From: Sycon ciliatum
Taxonomy: Eukaryota > Porifera > Calcarea > Leucosolenida > Sycettidae
DNA: 64,000 bases
Assembly: GCF_964019385.1 (NCBI RefSeq)
Contig: NC_088645.1
Coordinates: 11,508,492 to 11,572,491, forward strand
Direction: 5' to 3'
In this document: positions 2,180-63,097 of the stretch, piece by piece
Layout of the letters: each line of letters opens with the position of its first letter
Position numbering within the stretch: position 1 is the first letter of the stretch
Translations under genes and position numbers: made by a program
The notes under the pieces: generated by a model
What the model saw: only the letters and a program-made list of their open reading frames with translations
Told to the model about the DNA's origin: nothing
The model's database searches: none

Positions 2180-2918
2180 ACAGGGATACCCCTCTTTGGA
2201 GATAATTACTCTTGGGACAAAGGCCTTCGTTATGGTTGGGATGTGCTTGTGTACGCGTAGACAGTAGCGTGTAGTGACGTTCCTGCGCTTCAGCACTGGC
2301 ATCTTCAGTTGTCTCCAGATCAGCATACAGCTAATCTTGGGTGTGTATACCATTAGACGGTGCCTAGGACACCTGTGCATGGACTCAATCCTGCTTCGTG
2401 CCGTCAGTCATGTAGCAAGACTTAGACGTACTCGCGGTGACGTCTGCGTTGGTAGAGTCAATGGCTTCAACCTAGTTGCGCTTAATTCGATGCAGAAGTA
2501 CGAGTAAAATGGGGAGAGTGAGGAGAAGCAAGGGAATACTGAAGCGCGGAGTAAGACCCTTTGCTTGCGCTGTTGCAGGCAAAATAATGATCCTGTCCAC
2601 GGCTGTTGATGGAGAGGGTTTAGCTGCATCAACTGTGTTGTCGTTAGTCCGTAGAGTTGTAACAGCAGACAATATAGCTCTTGTGGAGGTGTTCGAGTAG
2701 CGCCACTTGTTGCTTGAGGTACTATAGAGGTTTTAGCTAGAGGAGAGAGTGTACTTCGTGTAGTGAGGTGCACTGGAGTAGTGGTTGGACAGGTGTAGTA
2801 GTAGATGCAGTAGTACAAAAGCATTATAAGGGAGTTTTACCAGTTACTTCCAGCCCAGGACAGCTTTGGTAGAGCGTCTGGCAGTCGCTACATGCACCAT
2901 GGTCGCACGCATTAGACG
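2180..2918 (-). pseudogene. Cassette LL stalk/TM/tail exon A, decayed
   Basis: A splice acceptor (TTACTGTAG) precedes 2918, and phase 1 gives the stalk ASNACDHGACSDCQTLYQSC shared by the whole family. The frame stops soon after (TAA in place of the residues following GKTP) and carries a 2-base shift relative to exon B. Downstream, a TM-like run (PLLLLTLPILLVLLHRIK) is recognisable, followed by a TAG and further stops in the tail (near MTDGTKQD and before YADLETTEDASAE). Remnant tyrosine motifs include YADL and YTLL. The exon therefore cannot encode a full tail. A corresponding open exon B would lie left of base 1. Without RNA evidence, use as a truncated secreted form cannot be excluded. Confidence 0.75.
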
Positions 2919-2989
2919 CTACAGTAATAAGGTCAGAACATAACACATTACGAAAGATGTTGTGACAACGGCGGTGATTGGTAAAGAAA

Positions 2990-3300
2990 GTGACTTCTCC
3001 GAACGTCATAACTCGCGCTCCCTGCAGTCTGATTTCACACCTGACTGACTCACGACTCACGACCAAGAGCACTAAATGATGCAGTGCTCTCAGCAGAGCA
3101 GAAAATTAATTAGAACACTGTTGATGAGTAGTGAATTCCACGAAACACTGTGCATTGAGTAGGGAGTGGTGCCTTCTTGCAAGTTTGCGGAGTGGAAGGT
3201 TCGTCGGGCTTCTCGTGTGCTCCTGACGCAGTCGTGAGTCACTCAAGCGTCAAGTCAGTCGGCAGGAAGCACTAGCTCCGACGTTCAGAGCAGATCCTTT
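2990..3300 (+). repeat. Ribozyme-bearing repeat, copy 1 (degenerate hammerhead)
   Basis: Near-inverted arms (around CACCTGACTGACTCACGAC on the left and its complement on the right) enclose a decayed hammerhead at about 3112-3159. The core reads UUGAUGA instead of CUGAUGA, CACGAAACAC is kept, but the expected GUGUA is GUGCA and the stem I strand GCUCAA is lost. Same family as 14988-15405 and 39205-39590. Confidence 0.65.
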
Positions 3301-3633
3301 CTTTTAAAAAGTAGCAGATTGTCATAGGAAATACATAATGGGAACAGATTAGGCACTTCACTTTTGTCAAAGAACACAACATGAAAGTTGCAATCCTGAG
3401 GACAGACCCTGCGGCCACCATCATTTTGGTTACCATCTTCAAAGAGATTCACTTTTACCACGAGGTATATTCGTGTCAAAGAGTCAAAGAGTCTATTCGG
3501 AGAAATAAGTTGAACAATGCTTCACAAAAATATGATGCTCCAAACACCCCCACACATCCCTAAAATACCAACGTCATGATATTGTTTATTAACAATGGAA
3601 ATTATTGGCGCTCACCAAATAACTCATGCTTAC
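3301..3633. other. Intron between ectodomain and stalk exons (LL)
   Basis: Non-coding and closely matched by 58546-58867 (cassette R) and 23590-23828 (cassette L), which establishes the common intron ancestry of the cassettes. It begins with donor GTAAGC at 3633 on the minus strand. Confidence 0.65.
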
Positions 3634-4143
3634 CACGGATGGTTATCGCGATGTAAGGCTCCAGAGCAGCACTAAAGGCAAACGGCAGTAAGAGACGTGG
3701 CGAGCTGTCAGGCGGTAAGACCCAAGACACTTCTGACGAGAAAGCTTTAAAGCTCAACGGGCAGTAGGCTTTCATGGTGATCCCGAGGATATATGCCTCA
3801 TTAACACTGCTGTTATCAGATATGTAGTCGTTAACGCTCACCCCAGTCCATGTTGCAATGCCCAACATATGTGGACTAGGTGGAATGGGTTGAGAGGCAA
3901 TCTGATACTTTTTCCCAGCGAATTGCCTCAATAACACCAACTTTGGGTCGCACAATTGTTGAGACACATCTGCAGTTATATCAATCTGGATAAATGGACA
4001 GCCGTTGTAGAAGGATATGTTCGGGAAAGGAATAAATGTTCGTGGCTGGAGAATTGGTCCAGCATAGGGCACACTTGTCAGCTTCATATGATTGCCAATG
4101 GTCAGATTTCCTGGAGTTTGTGACCGTGTGCATGTTGGTGATA
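3634..4143 (-). CDS. Cassette LL receptor, ectodomain exon
   Basis: A 510-base exon, phase 1 at both ends, with acceptor CCACTCCAG and donor GTG|GTAAGC. It encodes 170 residues starting VSPTCTRSQTPGNLTI and ending ITIRG. Four cysteines are conserved in all cassettes (after SPT; in FYNGC; in SQQLC; in KAYC), probably two disulfides. Conserved sites include two N-glycosylation sequons (NLT, NIS), PFPNISFY, IQIDITA and TWTGV. The alternating hydrophobic pattern suggests a beta-rich fold, but I recognise no named domain, and it lacks the cysteine/tryptophan spacing of an Ig V-set. It joins a signal-peptide exon upstream and a stalk exon downstream, so it should be extracellular and is the likely ligand-binding part. 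The local cassette has only a decayed exon A in view. Confidence 0.8.
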
Positions 4144-4254
4144 CTGGAGTGGGAGAGAGACATGTAGCAATATTACCTATTTGGTTATGACGTACACACC
4201 CATCCACAGATACACATGCCCACTTACTCGTACATAACGTTATGTGCACATGCA

Positions 4255-4297
4255 CCCCCCCCCCCCCCCCAAGATGCATACACACACACACACATTC

Positions 4298-4332
<35 letters not shown>

Positions 4333-4412
4333 ACCACGCATACCTACACACACGCACACACACGCACGAACACACACACGAGCAAACACACACACACACA
4401 CACACACACAAC
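4255..4412. repeat. Microsatellite cluster (C)n, (CA)n, (CT)n
   Basis: A homopolymer C tract, then (CA)n, (CT)n and (CA)n tracts. The same composite lies in the first intron of cassettes L (24450-24620) and R (62290-62445) with different lengths. The long His/Thr or Cys/Val frames through it are artefacts. Confidence 0.95.
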
Positions 4413-5321: not shown

Positions 5322-5403
5322 CTGTTGCTCCAGTTTGCGGTAGCATCACTCCGAACATTCCTACAGCAAACACCACGACCAGTGCCCTGTGAATATACTT
5401 CAT
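5322..5403 (-). CDS. Cassette LL receptor, signal-peptide exon
   Basis: The ATG at 5403 starts MKYIHRALVVVFAVGMFGVM followed by LPQTGAT, a textbook signal peptide: basic n-region, hydrophobic core, small residues at the end. The exon is 82 bases and ends phase 1 at ACAG|GTGAGG. The next acceptor, 1.2 kb downstream, restores the frame with a valine. The in-frame GTG a few codons earlier (reading GTGGAGAAAATG) was not taken because all copies share the ATG. No clear TATA box was found upstream. Confidence 0.8.
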
Positions 5404-6920: not shown

Positions 6921-7044
6921 ATTGTAACATGGAAATAGTGGGCACAAGTTTTGTGCTAGATTGTGCACGTCTGACTGTTCAAAATCTGGTTTAGTCGGTG
7001 GACTCGATCGCATAACTTGTGCCCACAATTTCCATGTTACAATT
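6921..7044. mobile_element. MITE, termini ATTGTAACATGGAAA
   Basis: About 31-base inverted ends (ATTGTAACATGGAAATAGTG against CACAATTTCCATGTTACAAT) around a unique centre. A second copy is at the paralogous position 27216-27338, and related fragments lie near 46090, 46760 and 47940. No transposase. Confidence 0.8.
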
Positions 7045-7115
7045 TCATTGCTGTGTGATCATTGCACATGATATTAGATAAACCTTGTTTTGTTGACAGC
7101 ATGTTGTTGGTTGAC

Positions 7116-11470: not shown

Positions 11471-12816
11471 TCAATCATCCGCATCAACTTTCGGGTAGTC
11501 ATCTTTAGTGAGAGATGTGTACACAGCATGTGTGACGGGCATGAACACCGTGTTGTATTCCTCCGAGTGTGTAGTACTACAGATAACCAAGCCATGACGA
11601 TGGGGGCTGCTGTCAGCAGGAGTTTCCACTCCGCCGGCAGTGTTGCTATGCGGGCCAATGCTTTCGTAAGTGCTAGGTTGCAGTTGTGCACTTGTAGACA
11701 GCGGCATGTAGTGAGATCGTTGTGCATCGGTACTGGTGTTATCAGATGTGTTCACATTAGAATACGTAGAATCGTCGTTCTGTAAGCCAATTGAAGATGC
11801 CATGGGCACATACTCATCGATATGGGTTTGTATTTTGCCGTCGGAACGAGAAAAAGACGTCGGAGTCCTCACAGTATTGGCTGCTCCCTTGTCAGTAGAA
11901 GATTTACCGCTGTGAGTGTCTTTGCTTTGGAGATCAATACGTTGGTACGGGTGAGGTTGTGTTTGCATACTTGTTGACAGTGATGTGTATTGTGGCAGTT
12001 GTTCTTCATCACTAACGTCTGCATGTGTCTCCCGACCAGCCGACAGGGAAACGTGAGTGTGTACGGTATTCAATGAATCCAAGTGCACATACTCATCCCC
12101 ATGGTCCTGGTTTGCAGCGTCAGTGGTGGCAGGCAACCAAGTCGTGCTGGCGGAATTGGGTTCTTCATTCGGAGCTTCAATATCGATATAGTAAGGACTC
12201 TCAGACGAATTTATTAACGCTCTATTGGATGCTTCAGGCCTAGTTGGGAGTGTCCGTGGGACACGACAGTTGCACAGTTGCTCATTCTGCAACCCTGATT
12301 GGCCAGCTGCGGACGGGAAATCACGCTGCTTGATTCGATGTAGAAGTATCACGAATACAGACAGCGTCAGGAGGAGCAAAGGCACAACGATGCCCAGGAT
12401 AATACCTGTTGATGGCGCTGTTTTCACAATGATACGGCGGTCCAAAGTTTTTGTACTGCTAGGCCTTGATGTGGATGGGGAAGATGGTTCAACGAAATCT
12501 TCTTTAGCGGCTGTGTGGTTGGTTGAACTGCTGGGAAGTGCTGAACTTTTCATTTCGAGAGACGATGTAGAAACCATTGTACTCATGGTCGTGGGTAATC
12601 GAACAAAGCCAGTAGTAGTTTGTACAGCAGAGGACAACATCCCCTTACTGCTGTCAGAAACGGTTGGTGGACTGGGAATTGTGGTTGGACACGTGTAGTT
12701 AGATGCAGTACTACAATAGTATTGATAGTGATTTTTACCAGTTGCTCCTATCGCAGGACAGCTTTGGTAGAGCGTCTGGCAGTTGTCACATGCAGCATGG
12801 TCACACGCATCTGATG
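11471..12816 (-). CDS. Cassette L receptor, stalk/TM/tail exon B
   Basis: The acceptor GTTCTGCAG precedes 12816. Phase 1 opens an uninterrupted 447-codon frame. In order: a six-cysteine stalk (ACDHAACDNCQTLYQSC ... YYC ... TCP), a Ser/Thr/Pro-rich segment about 40 residues shorter than in cassette M, a TM helix (ILGIVVPLLLLTLSVFVILL) closed by HRIKQRD, a CNC pair that could be palmitoylated, and a long tail. Tail tyrosine motifs in order are YIDI, YVHL, YTSL, YQRI, YVPM, YSNV, YMPL, YESI, YNTV, YTSL and YPKV. YNTV-x8-YTSL matches ITAM spacing, YVPM fits a PI3K p85 site and YSNV a Grb2-type site (known motif rules). The nearest upstream in-frame exons are the L ectodomain and signal peptide 11 kb away across a TE-filled intron; that linkage is inferred. 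Confidence 0.85.
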
Positions 12817-23828: not shown

Positions 23829-24338
23829 CACGGATGGTCATGGTGAAACGGGGCTCCACAGGAGCACCAAAGGCAAACTTCAGTAAGACACGTGGTGAGT
23901 TGTCTTGCGGTAAGACCCAAGTGACTTCCGGCAAGACAGCTTTATAGGTCAACCAGCAGTTGGATTTCAGGGTGATTCCAAGAATATAGGATTTAGTACC
24001 ACTGCTGTAATCAGATATGTAGTCATCAAGGCACACCCCAGTCCATGTTGCAACGCCTGCCATATGTTTACCCGGCGGAATGAGTTTAGAGGCATTCTGA
24101 TACTTCCCCCCAGGGAATTCCTTCAATAGCACCAACATCGGATCGCACGACTTTTGAGCCACATCTGCAGTAATATCGATCTGGACAAATGGACAGGTGC
24201 TGTAGAAGGATATGTTCGGGAAAGGAATAATTGTCAATGGCAGGAGAATTGGTCCAGCATAGGGCGCTCTTGTCAGCTTCATATGATTGTCAATGGTCAG
24301 ATTTCCTGGACCTTGTGAGAATGTGCATGGTGCCGAGA
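23829..24338 (-). CDS. Cassette L receptor, ectodomain exon
   Basis: 510 bases, phase 1 both ends, acceptor CCCCTTGCAG and donor GTG|GTGAGC. It encodes VSAPCTFSQGPGNLTID through MTIRG. It retains the four family cysteines, both sequons, PFPNISFYSTCPFVQIDITA and TWTGV, and has one additional cysteine (TGVCLDDY), unpaired in the other cassettes. No stops. Same unrecognised extracellular domain as in LL, M and R. The downstream stalk exon in the same phase is 11 kb away at 12816; exon A seen in other cassettes is missing here, presumably displaced by the TE insertions. Confidence 0.8.
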
Positions 24339-25618: not shown

Positions 25619-25700
25619 CTGTTGCTCCAGTTTGCGGTAGCATCACTACGAACATTCCTACAGCAAACACCAGGACCAGTACCCTGTGAATATACTTCAT
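25619..25700 (-). CDS. Cassette L receptor, signal-peptide exon
   Basis: 82 bases from the ATG at 25700 to ACAG|GTAAGA, phase 1. It encodes MKYIHRVLVLVFAVGMFVVM followed by LPQTGAT, almost the same as LL and R. It targets the receptor to the secretory pathway. The context before the ATG (GTGGAGAAA) is identical in LL, L and R. Confidence 0.8.
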
Positions 25701-30295: not shown

Positions 30296-31888
30296 TCAAA
30301 AACGATCCGGGGCTCTGACTACGCGCCCAGAACGCGTCATCTCCTGCTGCCGTGGTGGTGGTAACGGTGCTGACGGTTCATACGCTGGCTGCTGAGGGAC
30401 GATAGCAGGTTGAGCGGTATCGGCAAGCCCAGGGGCCACGTCCTGTGACGATACTTCTAATGGCACTAACCTTTGGATCGGCCTCAACAGGGTACTGGTA
30501 CTCAACTTAACCTTGGCAACACGACGCTTACCATCTCGACCAGGGAATAACTCGATGATCCGTCCCAAACGCCAGAACTGTTTGCGCTTGGTATCATCGA
30601 GAACAAAGACAACATCACCCATAGCTAAAGGGCGCGACATGGTCTGTTGGTGCTTGTTCAGCTGACTTAGGTACTCCACCTCCCAACGATTCTTGACATG
30701 CTCCAGTGTCCGACTGAGGTAACGCAATCTCGATGACATCTGCGCAGCGTCCAGGGTACCTGCTGGCTTCTCTGATGACATCCAGATGTTACCCATCATC
30801 ATTTCAGGGGTTACTGGTGGCTCATCCAGGCTATCAGACACATAAGTTAGCGGACGACTATTCACCACTGCTTCAACCTCATACAAGAGGGTCTCAAGCT
30901 CCTGGACCTTCAGAAACGCTGTTCCCATTACCTTTTTCAAGGCACTCTTCACTGTACCAACCATTCGCTCATAGAAGCCTCCATGCCATGGTGCAGCTGG
31001 AGGATTGAACATCCATGGCACACTCAGTTTGTCAGATGCCGCCTTGAACGTTGTAGCGTTGTCAGACCTGATCCGAGACGGCAACCTACGTCTCGCGACA
31101 AACTTCCGAAATGCCATCAAGAATGACTCGGTACTTAAACTATCGACCACCTCCAAGTGAACTGCTCTGGTGGTGGCACACACAAACAATGCTATCCATA
31201 CCTTCGGAGATGACTCACCACGGCGCACGTACAACGGACCAGCATAGTCGATGCCGGTAGTTGCGAACGGCCTCTCGTGAACAACTCGGTCTTCCGGCAG
31301 CGGCGGGCAGACTTCTGAGGCAGCCTTAGCCTTGTAGCGGCGGCATGTAACACATCGCTGAGTAATGTTGCGTAGCGCCCGTCGACCACCGATAATCCAA
31401 ACTTTCTGACGGATGAACGACAAGACTCCTTCTACACCTTGGTGCATCCTTTCAACATGCATTTTCTCCAACAGCAACTCAGTCAGATGATGTTTGCCTA
31501 ACAGGACTGGGTGCTTGGCTCCATACGCCAACTCGCTGTGCTGAAGTCGTCCGCCGGCTCTGAGCACTCCATGCTCATCCAGAAACGGTGCAAGCTGATA
31601 CACCTTCGACCCAGGCTTCACTGGTTGACCTTGCTTGATCAGCTCAAGATCCTCAGCGAAACATGCGGCTTGAACGATGCGGTACAATACGTTGTCTGCT
31701 GCAAAATAGAGTTCAGCACGAGGCTCAGTGTGCTTCCACTGCAACATCCGAGTCACCATGCCCTGTGCCCTCGACCATTTACTGAATCGGAGCCACCATT
31801 CCTTATCAGATTCTCGACTACAGGTGGTGGCTGACACTCGTAATTCTACACTGGACTCATCTGTAGCTGCGGTTGAGGATGCGGTGGG
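30296..31888 (-). pseudogene. BEL/Pao integrase
   Basis: Continues in frame after the TAG. An H-H-C-C zinc domain (HHLTELLLEKMHVERMH ... RCVTCRRYK), the core with TGIDYAGPL, SDNATTF and FYERMVG supplying D, D and E, and a C-terminal GDVVFVLDD block complete the integrase. The end is a basic tail, SGRVVRAPDRF. The integrase part itself has no internal stop (513 codons), so only the upstream stop separates it from RT. Confidence 0.9.
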
Positions 31889-33395: not shown

Positions 33396-33397
33396 TT

Positions 33398-33641
33398 ACT
33401 GTATAGCAGGAAATTTTCGGACGGAATTTATTTTCGTACGATTTCGTACACGCCCTCTTTTGTACTAAAATTAATTCCGTACTAAAATTTGTTCCTGTGA
33501 AGTTATGTACACTATACATGCGTACCGCAAGCAAACACGTGCATTTAGCATGCACCACTGTACGAAAATAAAATCCGTACGAAATGTCGAAATTCGGCTT
33601 TGTCCGAAAATAATTCCGTCCGAAAATTTCCTGCTATACAG
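33398..33641. mobile_element. Mariner-type MITE inside the BEL polyprotein, TSD TA
   Basis: Inverted ends CTGTATAGCAGGAAATTTTC (perfect over 20, continuing GGACGGAATT). TA is at 33396-33397 and 33642-33643. The 244-bp insert puts stops between protease and RT. Confidence 0.9.
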
Positions 33642-36292: not shown

Positions 36293-37761
36293 TCAATCAT
36301 CCGCATCAGCTTTCGGGCAGTCACCTTTAGTGAGAGATGAATAAACAGCATGTGTGACGGGCATCAACACAGTGTTGTATTGCTCCGAGTGTGTAGTATT
36401 ACAGATAACCAAGCCATGACGATGGGGGCTGCTGTCAGCAGGAGTTTCCACTCCGCAGGCAGTGTTGCTATGGGGACCAAGGCTCTCGTAAGTGCTGGGT
36501 TGCAGTTGTGCACTTGTAGACAGCGGCATGTAGTGAGATCCTTGTGTATGGGCGCTGGTGTCATCAGATGTGTTCACATTAGAATACGTAGAATCGTTGT
36601 TCTGTAAGCCAATTGAAAATGCCATGGGCACGTACTCATCGATATGAGTTTGCATTTTGCCGTCGGACCGAGAAAAAGATGTCGGTGTCCTCACAGTATT
36701 GGCTGCTCCCTTGTCAGTAGAAGATTTACCGCTGTGAGCGTCTTTGCTTTGGAGATCGATACTTTGGTACGGGTGAGGTTGTGTTTGCATACTTGTTGAC
36801 AGTGGTGTGCATTGTGGCAGTTGTTCTTCATCACTAACGTCTGCATGTGTCTCCCGACCAGCCGACAGGGAAACGTGATTGTGTACGGTATTCAATGAAT
36901 CCATGTGTACATACTCATCCCCATGGTCCTGGTTTGTAGCGTCAGTGATGGCAGGCGACCAAGTCGTGCTGGCGGAATTGTTTTCTTCATTCGGAGCTTC
37001 AATATCGATATAGTAGGGACTCTCAGACGAATTTATAAACGCTCTATTGGCTGCTTCAGGCCTAGTTGGGAGTGTCCGTGGGACACGACAGTTGCACAGT
37101 TGCTCATTCTGCAACCCTGATTGGCCAGCTGCGGACAGGGAATCACGCTGCTTGATTCGATGTAGAAGTATCACGAATACAGACAGCGTCAGGAGGAGCA
37201 AAGGCACAACGACACCCAGGATAATACCTGTTGATGGCCCTGTTTTCACAATGATACGGCTATCCAAAGTTTCTGTACTGCTAGGCTTTGATGTGGATGG
37301 GGAAGATGATTCAACGAAGTCTCCTGTAGCGGCTATGCGTTTGGTTGAACTACTGGGAAATGCTGAACTTTTAATTTCGAGAGATGATGTATAAAACCTT
37401 GTACTCGTGGCTGCTTTAGACGTGGGCAATCGAACAAACCCAGTAGCAGTTTGTGCAGCAGAGGACAATATTACCATACTTCTGTCAGAAATGGTTGGTG
37501 GAATGGAATTTGTAGTAAGTGTCGCTGTAGGTACTTCAGTGGTAACCGCCAGAGAAACAGCAGTAGTTGCGGAAGGCTTTGCATCGGTGCTCCAAATGGC
37601 AGAGGTTGCAGCTTGTGTTGCAGTAGTCGTTGGACATGAGTAGTTAGATGCAGTACTACAATAGTATTGGTAGTGATTTTTACCACTTGCTCCTAATGCA
37701 GGACAGCTTTGATAGAGTGTCTGGCAGTTGTCACATGCAGCTTGGTCGCACCCACCTGATG
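36293..37761 (-). CDS. Cassette M receptor, stalk/TM/tail exon B
   Basis: The acceptor GTTCTGCAG precedes 37761. Phase 1 gives 488 codons to TGA at 36293. Layout: stalk with six cysteines (residues ~5-45), a Thr/Ser/Pro-rich mucin-like stretch (~46-165), TM (~178-200, LGVVVPLLLLTLSVFVILL), basic stop-transfer HRIKQR, CNC, then a ~285-residue tail. Tyrosine motifs: YIDI, YVHM, YQSI, YVPM, YSNV, YMPL, YESL and the terminal pair YNTV-x8-YSSL (ITAM-like). One tyrosine present in L and R is a cysteine here (QCTPL). The tail is nearly identical to those of L and R. A hAT element abuts the stop codon, so the native 3' end now lies at 29893 and transcripts may read into the element. Confidence 0.87.
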
Positions 37762-40115: not shown

Positions 40116-40735
40116 CTAGGTGTTTCGGGGAAAGAAGTTTTTAAAGGATTGTATCGGGCATGAGCAAAATGTAATTACTTTCTCCAACAGCCCACACGTT
40201 ACTAAGGAACGTATCACCACCAGGCTTGGTGTCAACAGGGATTTCCCCTCTTTGGAGATCATTGCATTCGTGACCAAGGCTTCGTAACGGTTGAGATGTG
40301 CTTGTGTACCCGTCGATAGTAACATGTAGTGACGTTGCTGCGCTTCAGCATTGGTATTTTCAGGTGTCTCCACATGAGCATACAGCGAATCCTGGGTACG
40401 TTCAATATTAGCTGGTGCCGTGGACAACTGCGCATGGACACAATCCTGCTTTGTGCCGTCGGTCATGGAGCAGGACTTGGGTATGCTCACGGTGATGTTC
40501 GCGTAGGTAGAGTCTATGGCTTCAATTATAGTATGGGCTCTGGGATGTATCATTTGCTACTTGGCGGAATTGTTGGGCGCGGACTATGGTATACGGGGGT
40601 GTTGTTGGAGTATGCAAGATATCCGCTTCTAAATTTTCTCTTCGCGAATGTCCGCTTGCTGAGAGGGATTCGCGCTCAATTCAATACGGCAGTACGAGTA
40701 AAATGGAGAGAGTGAAGAGAAGCAAGATTGAGTAA
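40116..40735 (-). pseudogene. Cassette M exon A, truncated
   Basis: Starts abruptly inside the TM (LLLFTLSILLVLPY) with no stalk, then a TGA, then RESLSASGHSRREN, and a one-base insertion after SQSPYY. The following frame (40553 leftward) is open and rich in tyrosine motifs: YANI, YAHV, YMLL and YEAL. Losing the stalk and half of the TM makes it non-functional as an exon. Confidence 0.75.
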
Positions 40736-40980: not shown

Positions 40981-41493
40981 CACGGATTGTCATCATGACA
41001 AAAGGTTCCAGCGCCTCCGGATGGGAATACGTCTGTAAGAAATCTGGTGCACTGCCATTTGGCAAGAACCATGTGACTTCCATAGGTTTAGCTTGTACAC
41101 CGAACCGGCAGTTAGGTCGAAGGGTCACTCCAATGATATAGGCTACAGTAACGCTGCCGAAATCAGATATGATGTAGTCGTCAAGGCGCACTCCAGTCCA
41201 TGATGCTCTGCCCCCCGTATGTTTACTAGGTGGAATTCTTTTAGAGTCAATCTGATACTTTGTACCAGGGAATTCCTTCAATAGCACCAACGTCATGTTG
41301 CAACGAGATGCAAGCCCTTCTGCAGTAATATCAATCTGCACAAATGGACAGCTGTTGTAGAAGGATATCTTCGGGAAAGGGATAATTGTGCGTGGTTCCT
41401 GAAGTGATCCAGCAACAGTCGCCTCTTTCAGCTTATCATGATTATTAATGGTCAGATTTGCTCTAATTTGTGATGATCGGCATGCCGATGACG
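40981..41493 (-). CDS. Cassette M receptor, ectodomain exon
   Basis: 513 bases, phase 1 both ends, acceptor CATATTGCAG and donor GTG|GTGAGT. It encodes ASSACRSSQIRANLTINNH through MTIRG, 171 residues. The four family cysteines and the NLT sequon are kept; the NIS sequon is lost (KIS). TWTGV is SWTGV, and there is one extra residue in the DDYIISD region. It is the most diverged of the four ectodomains, in line with a different flanking sequence, and no stops occur. Same unknown extracellular domain. Confidence 0.8.
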
Positions 41494-41544: not shown

Positions 41545-42610
41545 GATATTTGTGCGTGGTTCCTGAAGGTATCCACCAACAGCCGCCTCTTGTAGCTTAT
41601 TACTTCCTTCGTATACAAAAACGTCGTGACTTTTTTTGAAAGCTGCGCACAGCTCTGGAATTGTTCCGTTTGACTCGGAATAACACTCGTGGCATTGTCT
41701 AACCTGTTTACAAGCTATACAAGCAACTCAGACGAATGAGATTGAGTTTTTTCAGAGTCTTCGTCGCTCATGTCATTGTCACCTGACGACGCTGACTCCG
41801 CATCGCCAACAGTCGCTGCTTCCGCTCGCATTTCGTTCAGATTCTTGTCACCTGCAGTGATGATCCGACGCTGGACTTTGGCTACGTCCTCTTCATCTCT
41901 AGAGCTGTGTACGAATCGGTGTCAACTATATTCAGTTGTTCCAACCCGCAACCTCCATTATGCCGTGAAACGAGTCGTACAAGCACATCCACACGCTTCG
42001 CATTTTCTCACCAGGAAAATCATTCTACAATTTTTTTTCTACAATGGCTTCGAGGAGGTCCCTGCGATTCCCCTTGGCGACAAAGGAGGCGTCTGACTGG
42101 AGAGAGGCGAAGAAAGCCAGGCCATCGACATTCTGATCCTGAGTCTGCGCTGGTTGCACGACGACTGAAATGTTTCATCTTGCCGTGCGAGCGAAACAAA
42201 TCGATGTTCTTCCGCTGCGTAGATATGGGGCCGCGCACCGCAAGTACGAGCCTGGCCAGTTTCAGGCCAGCGAGTGACGCGTGACTCCGTGTTCCAGCCA
42301 CGAGCTACACTTCGTCACTGTGTCAGTTTCGAGCAAGTGTTAGTTTTTTTTCATTTGACTTGAGGTTCTGTCGGCAACGTCCTCACACGCATGGCGTACG
42401 TGGAGAATCTGTTCGGGATCAACCAAACTCACCTCGACATGAACGTGGGTTGTCGATGACAGCCTTTGGCGCCGTTCGTTGAGCAGGTTCTTGCTCAACA
42501 ACACCGTGCAAAAAAAGTCACGAAGTTTTTGTATACGGAGGAAGTATGATTATAGATGATCAGATTTGCTCCGATTTGTGATGATCTGCACCCTGGCGAC
42601 ACTGCAATAT
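41545..42610 (-). pseudogene. Second, partial ectodomain exon split by a transposon
   Basis: 41545-41600 and 42547-42600 together match the first ~110 bases of the neighbouring ectodomain exon (e.g. GTGCGTGGTTCCTGAAG, CAGATTTGCTCYRATTTGTG). The remainder is missing. It is a tandem remnant of a duplicated ectodomain exon. Confidence 0.75.
41603..42544. mobile_element. Stowaway/mariner-like element, TSD TA
   Basis: Inverted ends CTTCCTYCGTATACAAAAAC continue NTCGTGACTTTTTTTG, flanked by TA (41601-41602, 42545-42546). 942 bp without a recognisable transposase. Confidence 0.82.
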
Positions 42611-43290: not shown

Positions 43291-43366
43291 CTGCTGCTCC
43301 ACTGTGCCATGGTATTACTCCGAAAATACCTACGATGAATACCACTATCTGCATTCTGCAATTCAT
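43291..43366 (-). CDS. Cassette M receptor, signal-peptide exon
   Basis: ATG at 43366, MNCRMQIVVFIVGIFGVIPW followed by HSGAA, ending phase 1 at GCAG|GTAAGA. 76 bases, two codons shorter than the others. It has a hydrophobic core and small residues before the junction. Sequence clearly diverged from LL, L and R, matching its diverged ectodomain. A second in-frame ATG four codons on would also give a signal peptide. Confidence 0.72.
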
Positions 43367-48778: not shown

Positions 48779-50751
48779 CATCCAATGCGTGCAAACAATC
48801 TGAAAGTGGCAACTGCCAAACACTCTATCAAAGCTGTCCTGGGTTCGAAGCAACTGGTAAAATTCCCTTCCAATACTATTGCAGTACTGCATCGCACTAC
48901 GCCTGTCCGGCAACTACTATGGTGCAGTCGACCACAACACAAACTGCACCATCTGCTCTTCCCAGCACGTCCACAGCGACTACAGTTCCTGCTATCAAAC
49001 CTGCAACCACACTGGAAACCAACTCTACCGCAAAGAGCAATGACATTGAAAGGAACAGCACAGAATCTGCCTCAATGACTGTCTCATCACCTACAACATT
49101 GCCACCATCCAAGCAGTCGACATCAGCCGTAGAATCCACAGCAGCGTCTATGCTACATGTGGCAATATCGCAGCCGGCAGTGTACATCGGTGTTGCATCC
49201 GGGGTTCTCCTCATTATCACATGTGTGGTGGTGTTGGTTTGTTACTTGCACTGCAGAAAGAACAAGACAATGTTTAACATGGTGAAACGCAAGCTGCCTT
49301 CAATCGTGTCAGTTGCTGGACTTGGTATGAGACACAGGAGTAGAACGGATATTAACCACTACGAAGCAACTCCATGTCGCAACTCCGAAGGCGGTGAGCG
49401 ATTTGAATCACTCTCCGAACCCAATGAGCAGCCACCTCCAGAACTACCAGAGCTACACAGAACGGATGACACTGTAGACGTAGGGCAAACAGCAAGAAGT
49501 CAGCGATCAAGAAGACTAAAAGCGCTTCACAATATGCCGCGGGTGAGTGAGGACACAGCGACGCCAGACTCCAGTCCGGAGCACGAGATATCAGCAGAGT
49601 GCCCTGGTGAGACCAGAGAACGACTTCTCAAGGCAAAGCCATCCGCGGCGGCTGAAAAGCGTGCAGTGCTTCGCAGTCCACGCTCGGCGTCGATTGAATC
49701 GAACACCGACTATGGTCGGCAACAAGATTTCTGGAGGATCGCAAAAACGGGAAGTGAATTATATTGCACTCCAGAGACCTTAAACTCTGGTGACATGGAG
49801 AGTGCACAGGTACAGCGACGTGCTTCCACCGTTAGTACTGCCACGTGTCCCTCCGTATGTCCAAGCGACTATCTGCTGCCATCGGAGCTGCTGTCCGCTG
49901 TGGATGAAACTCCAGAAAAGCGCATTCCAGTGACCCGCCGCACCAGCATAGAAGTTCGAGAAAAGCTCTTGGAAGCTAATGACTACCTGTGCCCGGCCGA
50001 AGTGGTGGTGAGAGTGCGTACGCCCAGTACCACGGTACCACCTCAAACCAAGCAATCACGACAATCCTCACTCTCTACACCATGTTACGAGCTAGTTACG
50101 GAATTTCCTGCCGACACACGAAAGACACGCAAACCGTCTGCAACGCCATCGCTGACAACGTACGACACACCAGGGGAGATACTTCAGCAAACCAAAACAC
50201 CAGATGTTACACGTGCCAGTTACGAAGATATCTTGCCAGAGCCAGGGAATAGCAAGCCACGACTGTCGCGTTTCGTCGCCAACAAACTCCACTCTAGCAC
50301 AAAATCCCAGCAGCGCTCATTCAAACGTTCCAATCCACCATCTCCACACGCATACGAAATGGTTGAAATAACACCGACAATGTCCCGTGCCACTCAGCCA
50401 CACTCTGGAACCCTGGAGGAACCAACCGCAGCGCAGCAGGCCCAGCTACACGTGCAGCAGAGTTTCGAAGACGACACACCACAGTTCATTGATCTTGGGT
50501 CGGGCATACCAGCCAACGTGATTACCTCATCAACAACAACCAATGACGTCATTGTCAACCCAATTGCCTTTCTGCAAAACGGGAAATCCCTAGAGGGGGA
50601 CAATGAGTACATGAACGTGTCGCTCGATGATTCACTGCTCGCTGCCATGACAAGAGGACCTGACTCGGGAAAGTGGCTAAGCAACCGAAGAAGCAGCCTG
50701 CCTGGTGTACATGAGCCAAAACTCGCTGATAAAAGCGTCTCCAAACTCTAA
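48779..50751 (+). CDS. Plus-strand receptor paralogue, stalk/TM/tail exon C
   Basis: The acceptor TGTTGTGCAG precedes 48779. Phase 1 gives a 656-codon open frame. The stalk (ASNACKQSESGNCQTLYQSC ... QYYC ... ACP) matches the minus-strand genes but keeps five of six cysteines. A Thr/Ser/Pro-rich segment follows, then a TM (VASGVLLIITCVVVLVCYLH) with CRKNK, and a ~495-residue tail unrelated to A and B outside its motifs: YELV, YEDI, YEMV and, near the end, YMNV (Grb2-type Y-x-N). It also contains serine-rich SPRSAS-like phosphosite clusters. No signal-peptide or ectodomain exon is visible on the plus strand upstream; the in-frame ATG at 48718 gives no good signal peptide. Either the 5' exons are distant, or it is an orphan exon. 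Confidence 0.8.
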
Positions 50752-54620: not shown

Positions 54621-55951
54621 TCATACAACAGGAATTTCCTCTCCGCCGGCAGTGTTGCTATGGGGACCAAGGCTCTCGTAAGTGCAGGGTTGCAGTTGTG
54701 CGCTTGTAGACAGAGGCATGTAGTGAGATCCTTGTGCATGGGTGCTGGTGACATCAGACGTGTTTACATTAGGATAGGTAGAATCGTTGTTCTGCAAGCC
54801 AATTGAAGATGCCATGGGCCCGTACTCATCGATATGGTGTTGCATTTTGGCGTTGGGTCGAGAACAAGACATCGGTGTCCTCACAGAATTGACTGCTCCG
54901 TTGTAAGTAGAAGATTTACCGTTGTGAGTGTCGTTGCTTTGGAGATCGATACTTTGGTACGGGTGAGGTTGTGTTTGCATACTTGTTGACAGTGATGTGT
55001 ATTGTGGCAGTTTTTCTTCATCACTAACGTCTGCATGTGTCTCCTGACCAGCCGACAGGGAAACGTGATTGTGTACGGTATTCAATGAATCCATGTGCAC
55101 ATACTCATCCCCATGGTCCTGGTTTGCAGCGTCAGTGATGGCAGGCGACCAAGTCGTGCTGGCGGAATCGTTTTCTTCATTCGGAGCTTCAATATCGATA
55201 TAGTAAGGACTCTCAGACGAATTTATAAACGCTCTATTGGATGCTTCAGGCCTAGTTGGGAGTGTCCGTGGGACACGACAGTTGCACAGTTGCTCATTCT
55301 GCAACCCTGATTGGCCAGCTGCGGACAGGGAATCACGCTGCTTGATTCGATGTAGAAGTATCACGAATACAGACAGCGTCAGGAGGAGCAAAGGCACAAC
55401 GATGCCCAGGATAATACCGGTTGATGGCCCTGTTTTCACAATGATGCGGCTATCCAAAAATTCTGTACTGCTAGGCTTTGATGTGGATGGGGAAGTCGAT
55501 TCAGCGAAGTCTCCTGTAGCGGCTGTGTGTTTGGTTAAACTGCTGGTAAGTGCTGCACTCTTAATTGCGAGAGACGATATAGAAACCCTTGTACTTGTGG
55601 CTGCTTCTGACGGGGGCAATCGAACAAACTCAGTAGCAGTTTGTGCAGCAGAGGACAATATGTCCTTACTTCTGTCAGAAATGGTTGGTGGACTGGGATT
55701 TGTAGTAAGTGTCGCTGTAGTTGCTTCAGTGGTAACCACCAGAGAAACAGCAGTAGTTGCGGTAGGCTTTGCATTGGTGCTCGGAAGGGCAGAGGTTGCA
55801 GCTTGTGTTGGAGTAGTGGTTGGACACGTGTGGTTAGATGCAGTACCACAATAGTATTGATAGTGATTTTTACCACTCGCTCCTAATGCAGGACAGCTTT
55901 GATAGAGTGTTTGGCAGTTGCCACATGCAGCTTGTCCGCACGCATCTGATG
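54621..55951 (-). CDS. Cassette R receptor, stalk/TM/tail exon B, C-terminally truncated
   Basis: The acceptor ATTCTGCAG precedes 55951; phase 1, 442 codons. Stalk SDACGQAACGNCQTLYQSCP with six cysteines, a long Thr-rich segment, the TM (LGIVVPLLLLTLSVFVILL) and CNC are as in M. Tail motifs: YIDI, YVHM, YTSL, YQSI, YGPM (valine replaced), YPNV, YMPL and YESL. The frame then diverges at HSNTAGGEEIPVV and stops, where minisatellite sequence begins, so the ITAM-like terminal pair is missing. The rest is intact, so it could still signal through the remaining motifs. Upstream exons in phase are the R ectodomain and signal peptide. Confidence 0.83.
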
Positions 55952-56582: not shown

Positions 56583-56584
<2 letters not shown>

Positions 56585-56999: not shown

Positions 57000-58106
57000 G
57001 GCTTGGTATCTGCAGTAGGATCCGGCGGATTCTGCCTGCAGAAAAATTGGCAGAATTCGGTACTCTTTCTGGTAAGTTTCATGCCTGTTTGGTATGTGGA
57101 TAACAAAATGGAGCAGAATTCGAGAAATTGCCCGCCATAAGGTTTGTATGGTTCTGCCAATTTCACTGCTTTTCGAGCAGAATCTGCCACCTTTTCGAGC
57201 AGAATCCTCGGGTCCCTAATCAGCAGGGATTTCCCCTCTTTGGAGATCGTTGCTATGGGGACCAAGACATTCGTAATGGTTGCCATGTGCTTGTGTGCAC
57301 GTGTATAATAACATGTAGTTTCGTTCCTGCGCTTCAGCACTGGCATGTTCAGCTGTCTCTAGATCAGCATACAGCGAATCTTGTGTTTCTTCAATATTAG
57401 ATAGTGCCATTGACACCTGTGCATGGACACAATCCTGCTTTGTGCCGTCCGTCATGGAGCAGAACGTGAGTGTGTTTTCGGTGATGTTCTCGTTCGTAGA
57501 GTCTATGGATCCAATAAAGTATGGGCTCTGGGATGTATTAGTTGCTACTTAGGCGTATTGAGGGGGGGGAGGGGCGGACTGTGGTATACGGGGTGTGGTT
57601 GGAGTCTGCAAGCTATCAGCTTTTAAATTTTCTCGTCGAGATTGGCCGTTTGCTGAGAGGGATTCGTGCTCAATTCGATACGGAAGTACGAGTAAAATGG
57701 AGAGAGTGAGGAGAAGCAAGGGAATACTGAAGCCTGGAGTAAGACCATTTGCTTGCGCTGTTGGTGGAAGAATAATGATCCTCTCCGCGGCTGTTGATGG
57801 AGAGGGTTTAGCTGCAGCAACTGTGTTGGCGTTAGTCCCTAGAGTAGTAATGGCAGACAATATAGCTCTTGTGGAGGTGTTAGAGTAGCGCGACTTGTTG
57901 CTTGAGGTACTATAGAGGTTTAAAGTAGAGGAGAGAGTGTACTTCGTGTAGTGAGGTGCACTGGAGTAGTCGTTGGACACGTGTAGTAGTAGATGCAGTA
58001 GTACAATAGCAATGGAAGGGAGTTTTACCAGTTACTTCTAGCCCAGGACAGCTTTGATAGAGCGTCTGGCAGTCGCTACATGCACCATGGTCGCACGCAT
58101 TAGACG
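57000..58106 (-). pseudogene. Cassette R stalk/TM/tail exon A, frame-shifted
   Basis: The acceptor TTACTGTAG precedes 58106 and the stalk ASNACDHGACSDCQTLYQSC is intact. The frame then drifts: two extra bases in the segment after the fifth cysteine push the TM (PGFSIPLLLLTLSILLVLPY) into another frame. That frame ends in TAA after PPPPQYA, and a later block is open again with YADL, YMLL and YECL. It is the best preserved exon A, yet cannot give a continuous membrane receptor. Reading from the acceptor it would yield a short secreted stalk peptide. Confidence 0.75.
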
Positions 58107-58189
58107 CTACAGTAATAAGTTCAGAAAGTAACATATTACGAAAGATGTTACAAGGGCGGTGATTAGTAAAGAATGTGTCTTCTCCGAAC

Positions 58190-58545: not shown

Positions 58546-59006
58546 TACAAAAAGTAGCCGATTGTCATAGGAAATACATAATGTAAACAGATTAGGCACT
58601 TCATTTTTTTCAAAGAACACAACATGAAAGTTCCAATCCTGAGGACAGAGCCTGCGGTCACCATTATTTTGGCTACTATCTTCAAAGAGATTCACTTTTA
58701 CTCCGAGGTATATTCGAATCTTTCGAATTAAAGAGTCTATTCGACGTATCGGAGAAAGAAGTTGAACAAGGCTTCACTGAAACAAAATCTATTATGGTGC
58801 TCCAAACACCCCGCACATTACAAAAATATCAAAGTCATGGTATCGGTTATTGATAATGGAAATTATCTTTTGTTTTCTTGCTTTGCGAGCTGGTTGCCTT
58901 TTTTCTGGACTCCCTCGATTTCATCATTTGTTGAGTCGTACCTGCCTTTCCGTTATGCATCCAAAGAAATCCAACGCCCTCTCGGCAGCGCAGCTGGTAC
59001 CTTTAT

Positions 59007-60890
59007 TATTTATTAGAAGCTTCTCCGCGTTGGCATCAATGCAATGTAAATATACACAGCATGTATAGCTTTCGCATAAGCCGAAGCGACAACAGCCAAA
59101 CAGGATATTGATCGCGATATAAAACATATGCGATATAAAACGCGTGACGAAAATAGAATACAATTAAAACAAGCAAACGAGCAGCTCAACCGAGTTGAAT
59201 TTAAACTTGCTGATCATTATCAGGGTTCATCTGTGAGCAGCAACATATCTCTCCAGGATACGGCCGCTGAGGTAGGTCCACGCCCCGCGATTCTGGGCGA
59301 TGCTCCTCAGCTCCTCAAGATCTGCCGAGGTCTTGAGGGTCCTCCCAACCAGCTCGAGATCGTGTCTGAGCACGACCGGCAGAGTTGTGCGCGGCCTGCC
59401 CCTCCAGGTAGGCTCAGTGGATGGCTTGAAGTAGGAGCACATTGACAGGTTCGCCGGTGCACTCTGGTCCAGCCGCAGCACGTGCCCAAACAGACGCCAG
59501 CGGGCTCCCAGGATCGAGATACCAAGTGGTGTTGAGTTTGTCCTCTTGTACAGGGTGTTATTCTTGATCTTAGCTGGGTACCGTATGCCAATAACTTTCC
59601 GCAGTTGTTGTCTGTGGAACGCATCAACTCTATGCATAGCGGTGGCAGTGAGGCCCCAAGTCCCGTTGTTGTAGCACAGGACCGGTAAGACGAATGCCTT
59701 GTATAGCCGTACTCTCAGCGATTCGTTTACAATGGAACCTCGTATCCATAATGCCCAGAGCCGGTGCAGGGCAGCTGTGGCGAGTTGCATTCTCCGCGCA
59801 GCATCCTCGTGGTCACCAATGAGGGAGCCCAGCTTCCTAGTGAGGCGCCATTCCTCGCACACTCTGTCGTTCAGCCGTGTGATGTTTGTGAGTTCTGTTT
59901 TAGATTCATTGATGTTGAGGTCCCAGGCTTTGAGGCACTTTGCAATGTCGGGCAGGAGCTCTTGAATACGTTTGCAGTCAGACGATAGGAAGTCGACATC
60001 GTCGGCGTACTCTGTATCAGTTGGCAAGCTGAGCCTGACATCTAGGTCGGGTCTTGCGCAGATAATCTGTCTCACCTCCCGAAGCGCTGCCTCCAGGTAG
60101 ATAACGAATAGGACAGGTGATAGTGAGTCACCCTGTGGTGTGCCTCGGGTGGTCTGGAACTGCTCGCTCTTCCCTCCAGGTAGCCGGACCTCAAGGGACG
60201 TGTTCCTGAGTAGGTAGGAGATAATGGTGACCTCATCATTCTCAAGGAAGCTAGCTAATAAAGTGAGCAAACGGTGCCTGGATATTGTGTCGAACGCTTT
60301 CGACATGTCTATGCCGAGCACGCCAAATGATTCCTTCACTCGCTGGCACCGTGCCGCGATCCATCTGTAGGACCAAACAACATCAGCCGTACTCCTACCA
60401 CTGCGGAAGCCACTCTGGTTCGGAGACAGGAACGTGTTGACTGCATGCCTGATGCGATTTAGGGCAATGATGGACAGCACTTTCCGAAGTGCAGTGAGAA
60501 GCACAATGGGCCTCAGGTTAGATGGAGGACCTTTAGGCTTCCCAGGCTTCTGAAGTGGGACGAGAGTTCCATGGCCAACCGACAGCGGATCACCACAGTT
60601 GATGGCACGTGTGTATAGATCGGCAAGGTGACGGTGAAGTGGTGCTGGGCCATATTTTATAAGTTCAGCAGGTAGGTCGTCGGGTCCAATCGCTCTGCCG
60701 TTATTTAGGCGTCGTGCTGCTGACCTGACGTCTACCTCGCTTATCGGTATCCCAAGAGGTTTGTTCTCTTGGTGTAGAGGTGCGCAGGTGGAATCAGCAA
60801 AGGCTGCTGAGAAGTGATTTCTGATTATTGAAGCTGACTCCATCGGGCGAAGGACCAGTTTGTTTGTTTGTACCTCCAAGGTGAAAATCC
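59007..60890 (-). mobile_element. RTE-like LINE, 5' truncated, nested
   Basis: Flanked by a ~28-base near-duplicate (CCCTCTCGGCAGCGCAGCTG at 58976-58995; CCCCCTCGGCAGCGCAGCTG at 60895-60914). The 3' end is GCCAACGCGGAGAAGC then TAATAAATAATAAAG. It lies within the plus-strand block above. Confidence 0.65.
59227..60879 (-). CDS. LINE reverse transcriptase
   Basis: 550 codons without a stop. Motifs in order: NGRAIGPDDLPAELIKYGP, GTLVPLQKPGKPKGP, LRPIVLLTALRKVLS, NQSGFRSGRSTADVV, GVLGIDMSKAFDTIS (catalytic Asp), TTRGTPQGDSLSPVLF, EYADDVDFLS (catalytic D-D), then the thumb (RLYKAFVLPVLCYNNGTWG) and the C-terminal GRPRTTLP. The endonuclease is absent, so this copy is truncated but its RT reads intact. 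Clade (RTE-like) is inferred from the microsatellite-like 3' end and RT style. A second member's C-terminus is at 38345-38720. Confidence 0.88.
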   Translation of the reverse strand: MEVQTNKLVLRPMESASIIRNHFSAAFADSTCAPLHQENKPLGIPISEVDVRSAARRLNNGRAIGPDDLPAELIKYGPAPLHRHLADLYTRAINCGDPLSVGHGTLVPLQKPGKPKGPPSNLRPIVLLTALRKVLSIIALNRIRHAVNTFLSPNQSGFRSGRSTADVVWSYRWIAARCQRVKESFGVLGIDMSKAFDTISRHRLLTLLASFLENDEVTIISYLLRNTSLEVRLPGGKSEQFQTTRGTPQGDSLSPVLFVIYLEAALREVRQIICARPDLDVRLSLPTDTEYADDVDFLSSDCKRIQELLPDIAKCLKAWDLNINESKTELTNITRLNDRVCEEWRLTRKLGSLIGDHEDAARRMQLATAALHRLWALWIRGSIVNESLRVRLYKAFVLPVLCYNNGTWGLTATAMHRVDAFHRQQLRKVIGIRYPAKIKNNTLYKRTNSTPLGISILGARWRLFGHVLRLDQSAPANLSMCSYFKPSTEPTWRGRPRTTLPVVLRHDLELVGRTLKTSADLEELRSIAQNRGAWTYLSGRILERYVAAHR

Positions 60891-61669
60891 AAGGCCCCCT
60901 CGGCAGCGCAGCTGAGCGTGGAGCTCAATTCAATGAGGGAAAAGTTTGAGGCGGAAAAGGAAGAGAGCGCCCTGAGAATCAGGCTCCTCGAGGGACAGCT
61001 GGAACGGGGAAACGAGTCGTCCTCGTCCAAGCGTAAACGTCGTAATGCTTCTGTCTCGCCGTCGTCTTCATCGTCTTCGTCATCATCTTCTTCATCGTCC
61101 TCGTCATCTGATTCGTCTGACTCGTCGGACGACTCAAGCCGGAAGTTTTTGTTTTCTTGCTATGGCTGTCCCCGCAGTTGTTTATTCTGTGATGAGTGTG
61201 TGTGTATGAGTGTGTGTGTGTGTGAGAGAGAGAGAGTGTGTGTGTGTGTAGGTGTGGTGTCGGAGTCCTTCGCGAGGCTTTGCAAGCCAGCGAGTGGAGC
61301 AAACTACCGCACGAAGACGACGACTTGGAACGACTCTGAGCATTGGCTCATGGAATGTTCGCTCTGTTGTGGAGAGTGATGGAACACTTCTAGCGGCAGC
61401 CGTGAGAGGAATCGTTTCCGATGATAAGCCAGATCCATAGCTGCTGAATATGGCTCTCTCGAACATGGTCCCGCTCGTCGTTTTATATTGTCGGCCCCGT
61501 AAGGGGACACGTGACCGTAATGGCAGTGTTTACCAGGACCAGGACCAGGAGGTGTGTGTGTGTGTACCTGTATGTGTGTGAGTATGTGTGCAGTATTGAC
61601 TTGTGAGTGAGAAAAGAACGGTTATTGATAATGGAAATCATTAGTGTGCACCAAATAACTCATGCTTAC

Positions 61670-62179
61670 CACGGATGGTCATGGTGACAGGAGGCTCCAC
61701 AGCAGCACCAAAGGCAAACGTCACTAAGACATGTGGTGAGCTGCCTTGCGGCAAGACCCAAGACACTTCTGACGAGGCAGCTTTATAGGTCATTGAGCAG
61801 CCGGCTTCCATGGTGATCCCGAAGATATATACTTCAGTAACATTGCTGGTACTAGATATGTAGTCCTTAAGGCGCACCCCAGTCCATGTTGCAACGTTCC
61901 CTATATGTTTCCCCAGCGGAATGCGTTCAGAGGCAATCTGATGCTTTCCCCCAGGGAATTCCTTCAATAGCACCAACTTCGGGTTGCACAATTGTTGAGA
62001 CACATATGCAGTAATATCAATCTGGACAAATAGACAGCTGCTGTAGAAGGATATGTTCGGGAAAGGAAGAAATGTCCGTGGCCATAGAATTGATGAAGCA
62101 CCAGGCGCACTTTCCAGCTTCATATGATTGTCAATGGTCAAATTTCCTGGACTTTGTGACCGTGTGCATGTTGGTGATA
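61670..62179 (-). CDS. Cassette R receptor, ectodomain exon
   Basis: 510 bases, phase 1 both ends, acceptor CCACCTCCAG and donor GTG|GTAAGC. It encodes VSPTCTRSQSPGNLTIDNH through MTIRG. Four family cysteines, NLT and NIS sequons, PFPNISFY, VQIDITA, TWTGV and SEVSWVLP are retained. By eye, about 57 of 170 residues differ from the LL copy, although intron and signal-peptide sequences around it are far closer. A serine/threonine-rich loop (ISSTSNVTE) adds a new sequon (NVT). Same unrecognised extracellular domain; no stop. Confidence 0.82.
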
Positions 62180-62289
62180 CTGGAGGTGGGAGAGAGACAT
62201 GTAACAACATTACCTACCCGATTATGATGTACACACCCATCCACAGCTACACATTCCCATGTACTCGTTCATAACGTTATGTGCACATG

Positions 62290-62445
62290 CACCCCCCCCC
62301 CCCAGATGCACACACACACACACACACACACACGCCTACACGCACACGCACCCACATTCCCTTTCTCTCTCTAGCAACCACGCATACCTACACATACGCA
62401 CACACAAGCACGAACACACACACGCGCGCAAACACACACACACAC
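62290..62445. repeat. Microsatellite (C)n(CA)n(CT)n
   Basis: Counterpart of 4255-4412 and 24450-24620. Confidence 0.95.
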
Positions 62446-63015
62446 ACACGTACTCGCGCAACTATAGATATGCACCCGCACTTCTTCAGTGTCAGAAAAG
62501 TGATCGGTTGTGTTTGTGCGATACAGTGTGCAGATGGCGTCAAGAAAGGGATCATTAAGGCCACGTCGTACTCTCAGCAAACGAAGTCTTGAAGCATGTC
62601 CGCAACGAGAAATCATGCGAGAAGCAACCAATACCCTCCAAAGTATAGACTTGAAGCTCCTACAAGGTCGGCCATTCACCTGTTTCGTTGTAGACGGTCT
62701 GCACTTGCCAATTCAAATAAGTAAAAATTATACTTGCGTACATCGTTTCCCCGTAGTTGGATGTACAGTATATATACACTGGGTAGCGCACCTGGTCAAA
62801 AGTCGTCCAGTGAATGCACTCGTTATGTAGTGATGTTGCTATTCAGATATGTGAAACGTATTTGGTTAGATTAATAAGGGGTAAGCAGCGGCATTCGGCC
62901 GTGTACAGATTTTTCATCAACCAACACACCATGAATACGCTCTCCGGCCAATAGGTAAGGTAAGGTATTTGTTCTCACGCTAGGATAATCGTGATCCTTT
63001 TAAGGATAATCTTAC
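62446..63015. other. Cassette R intron 1
   Basis: Shared with LL and L, including the plus-strand frame EACPQREIMREATNTLQSID. No insertion. Confidence 0.6.
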
Positions 63016-63097
63016 CCGTTGCTCCAGTTTGCGGTAGCATCACTACGAACATTCCTACAGCAAACACCACGACCAGTACCCTGTGAATATACTTCAT
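63016..63097 (-). CDS. Cassette R receptor, signal-peptide exon
   Basis: 82 bases from the ATG at 63097 to ACGG|GTAAGA, phase 1. MKYIHRVLVVVFAVGMFVVM followed by LPQTGAT. It differs from the LL exon at 3 of 82 bases. The last intact cassette on the right; transcription would run leftward to 54621. Confidence 0.8.

Follow-up and report, generated by a model that had tools for sequence, protein, structure and literature searches.

A half-megabase cluster of about thirty candidate recognition-receptor genes in the calcareous sponge Sycon ciliatum

The stretch of Sycon ciliatum DNA analysed here, which we call the window, comprises 64,000 nucleotides of contig NC_088645.1 (C3:11,508,492-11,572,491) in a 538.4-Mb assembly of 313 contigs. 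It carries four genes, A-D, each predicted to encode a type I membrane receptor with an ectodomain of about 170 residues, a six-cysteine stalk and a tyrosine-rich cytoplasmic tail. The window covers only part of a chromosomal cluster that extends over half a megabase and contains about thirty related, predicted receptor genes. We suggest, with a probability of roughly 0.6, that the cluster is a recognition-receptor complex of about 30 paralogous type I receptor genes with signalling of the immunoreceptor tyrosine-based activation motif (ITAM) type, serving immunity or allorecognition.

Results

Extent of the cluster

A search of the whole assembly with the ectodomain of gene D gave 35 matches, a lower bound, and at least 31 of them lie within C3:11,309,545-11,834,083, about 0.52 Mb, so the ectodomain is not a chance occurrence. 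The tandem array proposed in the preliminary description, which was drawn from the window, is thus real and larger than the window. The copies in the cluster are found on both strands, 20 on the minus and 11 on the plus. The remaining matches are two on the 23-kb contig C286, one on C8 and one partial match on C4. The C8 match (C8:33,446,170-33,446,688) is a lone full ectodomain copy and the C4 match (C4:2,864,981-2,865,130) is a fragment of 50 residues, both far from the cluster. On C286 the ectodomains are at 1054 and 20437. Their closest counterparts in the cluster match them at 90.7% and 98.1% identity, respectively, and this contig may represent a second haplotype or a piece that the array lacks. 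With the tail of gene D as the query, 82 pieces were found in the genome, 19 of which cover at least 356 tail residues without stops. The cluster DNA analysed below consists of the window, a further 200 kb that is mostly inside the cluster and contains 7,700 N, and small stretches.

Gene structure

Genes A-D are all on the minus strand. Their three coding exons would encode a signal peptide, a β-rich ectodomain with four cysteines and, in a single large exon ending in the stop codon, the six-cysteine stalk, a Ser/Thr-rich linker, the transmembrane segment and the tail. The gene starts proposed in the preliminary description (63097, 43366, 25700 and 5403) are the ATG codons of the signal-peptide exons, and the ends at 54621, 36293 and 11471 are the stop codons of the tail exons. 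For the fourth gene, A, the signal peptide and ectodomain are in the window as described, but the sequence at 2928-2190 is a decayed older tail exon. The tail exon of gene A is located at C3:11,502,687-11,504,032, about 4.5 kb past the left edge of the window.

We modelled 18 genes, the four in the window and 14 others; the remaining C3 ectodomains are outside this set. The script sought phase-1 splice sites at the expected places, the test being whether a site was present each time. Canonical phase-1 GT/AG sites, two donors and two acceptors per gene, were found in 18 of 18, as the preliminary description had claimed for the window, and the spliced proteins are open in 17. Furthermore, each of the 18 units comes with a signal peptide, an ectodomain and a downstream tail exon of its own, the arrangement of separate genes and not of an exon-choice locus.

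Tail types and signalling motifs

In the window and the analysed part of the cluster, the 19 stalk starts examined lead to 13 tails of type T1, three of type T2, one of type T3 and two truncated tails. The T1 tail exons encode 437-492 residues, counted from the stalk on. By pattern count, the ITAM pattern YxxL/I-x(6-12)-YxxL/I is present in every T1 tail, twice in 11 and once in the other two; the tail of gene A also has two ITAM-like motifs. A count of two was reached in at most 0.16% of composition-preserving shuffles per tail (p 0-0.0016, 11 tails), and the tails with a single motif gave p = 0.012 and 0.03, values that are not independent because the tails are kin. A YxxM motif is present once or twice in 13 of 13 T1 tails, with weaker support from the shuffles (p 0.008-0.16). 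In the tail of gene B, a unit in which an ITAM-like pair comes after a YxxM/L motif can be read twice. Seven of the 11 tail tyrosines are kept in all 13 T1 tails.

Two of the three T2 tails have an ITAM-like motif. The T3 tails are long, with other tyrosine contexts such as NEYMNV, and four copies were found, at C3:11,557,263 (in the window), 11,818,628, 11,827,219 and 11,844,564. The last three are downstream of the ectodomains at 11,816,554, 11,825,891 and 11,833,571, with which they are paired by position only. For the T3 exon of the window, which is absent from the preliminary description, no plus-strand ectodomain match better than E 2 was found within the window, and its protein is 96% identical to that at C3:11,844,564, the DNA being 97% identical over at least 2.4 kb. 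Thus, it looks like a recently moved fragment. An extra T1-type stalk start with a frame of 58 residues is found at C3:11,430,323-11,430,469 (minus strand), upstream of the tail of gene G10.

Recombination between ectodomains and tails

Ectodomains and tails were compared in the 14 genes with T1 tails, excluding G6, G7, G8 and G13, which have another tail or are broken. The ectodomains are 51-100% identical (mean 67%) and the tails 78-96% (mean 86%), and the two are weakly correlated (r = 0.18, Mantel p = 0.093). The ectodomain identity has r = 0.32 with that of the stalk part and r = -0.08 with that of the cytoplasmic part. Genes C and G4, for example, have tails that are 96% identical and ectodomains that are 57% identical, while C and G10 have ectodomains that are 94% identical and tails that are 85% identical. 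In approximately unbiased (AU) tests among the ectodomain, stalk and cytoplasmic part, the tree of the other partition was rejected in six of six cases, with a largest p of 2.3e-4; the tree of the cytoplasmic part is weakly supported. Furthermore, gene D has an inverted copy at C3:11,336,986, and over at least 6.6 kb, up to the window edge, the two are 99.7% identical. This stretch covers the signal peptide, the ectodomain, which is identical, and the decayed exon described below, but the tails are only 91% identical.

The conflict between the trees, together with the D copy that pairs the same ectodomain with a differing tail, indicates that exons have been exchanged between neighbouring genes, evidently in germline DNA. 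The preliminary description had called the exons exchangeable between genes. Their compatibility in frame holds in all 18 models, and the exchange that is seen is one in DNA.

Decayed second tail exons

We compared ten genes that retain, between the ectodomain and the T1 tail, a second stalk-bearing tail exon, a feature absent from the preliminary description (shorter relics in G10 and C were excluded from the comparison). All ten align without a frame difference at the stalk end, and in those copies that were translated, the transmembrane segment is in a different frame from the stalk. The acceptor AG is gone in three of the ten. The sequence resembles the T2 tails, which are open in G6, G7 and G8. 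Most simply, a T1 exon would have taken the place of a T2-like one, with the intron phase unchanged. We also considered the extra stalk exon as an alternative exon for a soluble form, and rejected this because the same frameshift is found in ten copies and the acceptor is lost in three; nine of the ten, however, retain a frame that is open as far as a stop and similar in length, and may give a truncated product.

Selection

The ratios of nonsynonymous to synonymous substitution rates (dN/dS) for 13 tails are 0.43 for the stalk, 0.94 for the linker, 0.40 for the transmembrane segment and 0.73 for the tail. From these estimates, the stalk and transmembrane segment are under constraint. In windows of 15 codons along the ectodomain, dN/dS is 1 or more in only three of 21, with a highest value of 1.34. 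Ectodomain evolution is, by these estimates, relaxed or locally diversifying. On these counts, and because recombination among the copies confounds and weakens the dN/dS tests, we do not claim positive selection on the ectodomain.

Identity of the ectodomain

All 33 distinct ectodomain copies share four invariant cysteines. None of the 33 matched a Pfam family at E ≤ 1, and when the stalk/tail exons of C and D and the T3 exon were searched, Pfam found neither an Ig nor a sushi domain. The structure was predicted, as the preliminary description had proposed, from an alignment of the 33 sequences, and was used with caution; an earlier prediction from four sequences was discarded (predicted local distance difference test score, pLDDT, 49). 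Searches of PDB sequences and two structure libraries gave no confident fold match. Among the 50 matches listed, no Ig, CUB, C-type lectin, SRCR or FN3 chains were prominent, which does not prove their absence. In viral contigs there was no relative of the gene D tail or of the four-sequence ectodomain alignment, in plasmid contigs none of the gene D tail, and in prokaryote contigs none of the 33-sequence alignment. A limited search of titles and the starts of abstracts on allorecognition and immunoreceptor clusters found no such family named there. The ectodomain is thus a predicted β-rich, four-cysteine domain of about 170 residues that is unmatched in the libraries searched, in agreement with the preliminary description. 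This statement covers only Pfam, PDB sequences, the two structure libraries and the viral, plasmid and prokaryote contigs.

Other features of the window and its surroundings

The features of the receptor genes in the window are collected in Table 1. The GC content is 43-51% across 4-kb blocks of the window.

Table 1. Receptor-gene features in the window (positions from the first nucleotide of the window).
Feature	Position	Strand	Remarks
Gene D exon 1, signal peptide MKYIHRVLVVVFAVGMFVVMLPQTGAT	63016..63097	-	donor CGG/GTAAGA (slash, exon border), phase 1
Gene D exon 2, ectodomain	61670..62179	-	510 nt, phase 1-1
Gene D decayed older T2-like stalk/transmembrane/tail exon	57219..58116	-	frameshift after stalk
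Gene D exon 3, six-cysteine stalk, Ser/Thr linker, transmembrane segment, tail	54621..55951	-	two ITAM-like motifs
Orphan T3 stalk/transmembrane/long-tail exon	48779..50751	+	
Gene C exon 1, signal peptide	43291..43366	-	
Gene C second-ectodomain fragment	42543..42608	-	about 22 residues
Gene C exon 2, ectodomain	40981..41493	-	513 nt, phase 1-1
Gene C decayed T2-like tail exon remnant	40275..40698	-	
Gene C exon 3, stalk/transmembrane/T1 tail	36293..37761	-	
Gene B exon 1, signal peptide	25619..25700	-	
Gene B exon 2, ectodomain	23829..24338	-	
Gene B exon 3, stalk/transmembrane/T1 tail	11471..12816	-	
Gene A exon 1, signal peptide	5322..5403	-	
Gene A exon 2, ectodomain	3634..4143	-	
Gene A decayed T2-like tail exon	2190..2928	-	further stops

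The fragment in gene C (42543-42608) is one of several short copies of the first 22-42 residues of the ectodomain, the others being at C3:11,438,110, 11,399,763, 11,386,808 and 11,463,914. Most of them lie a short way upstream of a complete ectodomain exon.

Retroelement open reading frames (ORFs) on the minus strand at 30299-33427 match reverse transcriptase, integrase zinc-binding, integrase core and DUF5641 domains, and we take them to be BEL/Pao-like; more ORFs adjoin them, up to 35581. An RVT_1 reverse transcriptase ORF at 59230-60924 (minus strand), presumably LINE-like, is located in the gene D intron between ectodomain and tail, and is also present in the copy G3 at C3:11,340,060. Some of the retroelement ORFs may resemble those of sponges or corals. 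A search of the assembly for COX1 found none, a weak negative because the positive controls of that search are prokaryotes.

Near the cluster, at C3:11,291,405-11,293,780 (minus strand), there is an ORF of 792 residues with a glycosylation-rich Ser/Thr repeat region, a likely transmembrane segment and a tyrosine-rich tail. It gave no Pfam match at E ≤ 0.01, and is perhaps another receptor gene.

Discussion

We propose that these proteins would be displayed on the cell surface, where the ectodomain, carried on its stalk, would sense a variable ligand in self/non-self or pathogen recognition. The T1 tail combines one or two ITAM-like and one or two YxxM motifs with overlapping matches to the immunoreceptor tyrosine-based inhibition motif (ITIM), and would signal through Src/Syk-type and PI3K-type partners, assuming that Syk-type kinases are present. 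It may also engage phosphatase partners, and from what is known of such motifs, its output could be activating, inhibitory or mixed. The T2 and T3 tails on the same ectodomain family would give other outputs, as in paired receptor families. Diversity would arise by tandem and inverted duplication, and recombination through the phase-1 introns would re-pair ectodomains with tails. The resemblance to immune or allorecognition complexes noted in the preliminary description is strengthened by the ITAM-like tails, the strong divergence of the ectodomains and the size of the array. In a more specific form of the proposal, which we put forward only tentatively, the cluster is a supergene for immunity or allorecognition of a kind as yet undescribed, where recurrent germline recombination in phase-1 introns joins a novel ectodomain to three kinds of tail and thereby reassorts specificity and output among about 30 genes.

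Several observations weigh against the recognition-receptor assignment. Each T1 tail has two or three ITIM-like matches (shuffle p 0.004-0.078), partly on tyrosines of the other motifs, and this makes the sign of signalling ambiguous. There is no ITAM-like match in the T3 tail of the window or in one of the three T2 tails. The conservation of the tyrosines is slightly above the mean of 0.90 for tail columns in these young copies, and constraint on the tail overall is loose. For the 33 ectodomain copies, overall dN/dS stays below 1, at 0.68 when pooled and 0.86 among 189 close pairs. Gene G13 is broken by a stop within the ectodomain, and the tails of D and G2 are altered at the C-terminus, that of D being short of about 46 residues relative to its longest relatives.

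Could the receptors serve recognition elsewhere, as gamete, cell-identity or developmental adhesion receptors with tyrosine signalling? Gamete and cell-identity recognition are also served by tandem, fast-evolving membrane families, and neither YxxM nor ITAM-like motifs are exclusive to immunity. However, the doubled ITAM-like motifs fit paired immune-type receptors better, and three tail types on one ectodomain family, with the pairing of T3 by position only, also favour an immune-type role. We regard a role in these other kinds of recognition as rather unlikely.

A decaying or mis-assembled array, in which recent duplicates, haplotype copies and fragments surround a few working genes, would account for the near-identical inverted copy of gene D, the two ectodomains on a separate 23-kb contig, the decayed tail exons, the orphan T3 exon, the broken gene and the N in the 200-kb stretch. 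However, 17 of 18 models are open with splice sites that fit in all 18, dN/dS is about 0.4 in the stalk and transmembrane segment, and the near-identity of the D copy stops before the tails, unlike a duplicate of a whole gene made in assembly. This makes decay or mis-assembly an improbable account of the cluster.

Exons of different genes might instead be combined in RNA, by alternative or trans-splicing, to give many isoforms per locus. Mixed joins would be in frame, since phase-1 GT/AG borders are found in 18 of 18 genes, and some genes retain an extra stalk exon or an ectodomain fragment. However, exon choice in RNA is unnecessary because each unit is a complete gene. Furthermore, the ectodomains are on both strands, the extra stalk exon is frameshifted alike in ten copies with its acceptor lost in three, and recombination in DNA explains the exchange. 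Combination in RNA is therefore more improbable still.

How does the cluster compare with known systems? According to PMC12065747, the fester and fester co-receptor (FF/FcoR) genes of Botryllus schlosseri form large clustered families of type I receptors whose long tails carry YxxI/L/V, ITIM or hemITAM motifs and whose gene content varies between haplotypes. The FcoR ectodomain is described there as a variable Ig, a sushi and two C2-type Ig domains, with FcoR paired with an FF gene and, in the fuhc locus, also with a HECT ligase gene; ITAM/ITIM domains are described for Hydractinia Alr (PMC12065747). The Sycon genes are alike in plan only, as type I transmembrane proteins with long tails bearing motifs of the ITIM, hemITAM or YxxI/L/V kind, and unlike FcoR they have one Pfam-unmatched domain and a six-cysteine stalk in three exons. 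No partner gene was recognised for them, and the one flanking ORF searched against Pfam gave no match. Because Pfam, a sequence-level test, did not find the domains by which FcoR is defined, Ig and sushi, we do not file the cluster under FcoR, although it may work like FcoR. Hydractinia Alr is similar in having receptor genes with ITAM/ITIM tails in one genomic complex, but its ectodomains are Ig-like, and none was recognised in the present cluster. The general plan of type I receptors in clusters, with tyrosine tails of the immunoreceptor type, is common to the Sycon genes and both families (PMC12065747). That the Sycon genes belong to either family is nevertheless hardly credible, given that Pfam found none of the FcoR domains.

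Two further comparisons can be made. In vertebrate paired receptor clusters such as KIR/LILR, one ectodomain family is placed on different tails, and tandem copies are shuffled by recombination and gene conversion. The likeness to the Sycon cluster is in these two respects. KIR/LILR have Ig folds, which Pfam did not recognise in the Sycon ectodomains, and a different motif layout, with no evidence of common descent. Dscam1-type arrays likewise have repeated exons of equal phase. However, there are no shared constant exons flanking an alternative array here, and 18 of 18 units are whole genes in themselves, running from a first to a last coding exon of their own.

To our knowledge, ITAM-type signalling has been described for few receptor complexes of invertebrates, the Botryllus and Hydractinia complexes above among them (PMC12065747). 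If the recognition-receptor assignment is true, the Sycon cluster would have arrived independently at a way of diversifying receptors, by means of an unrecognised ectodomain, a compact three-exon gene and a visible reassortment of ectodomains and tails. The matching of the binding and signalling halves of a receptor would then become a directly testable question.

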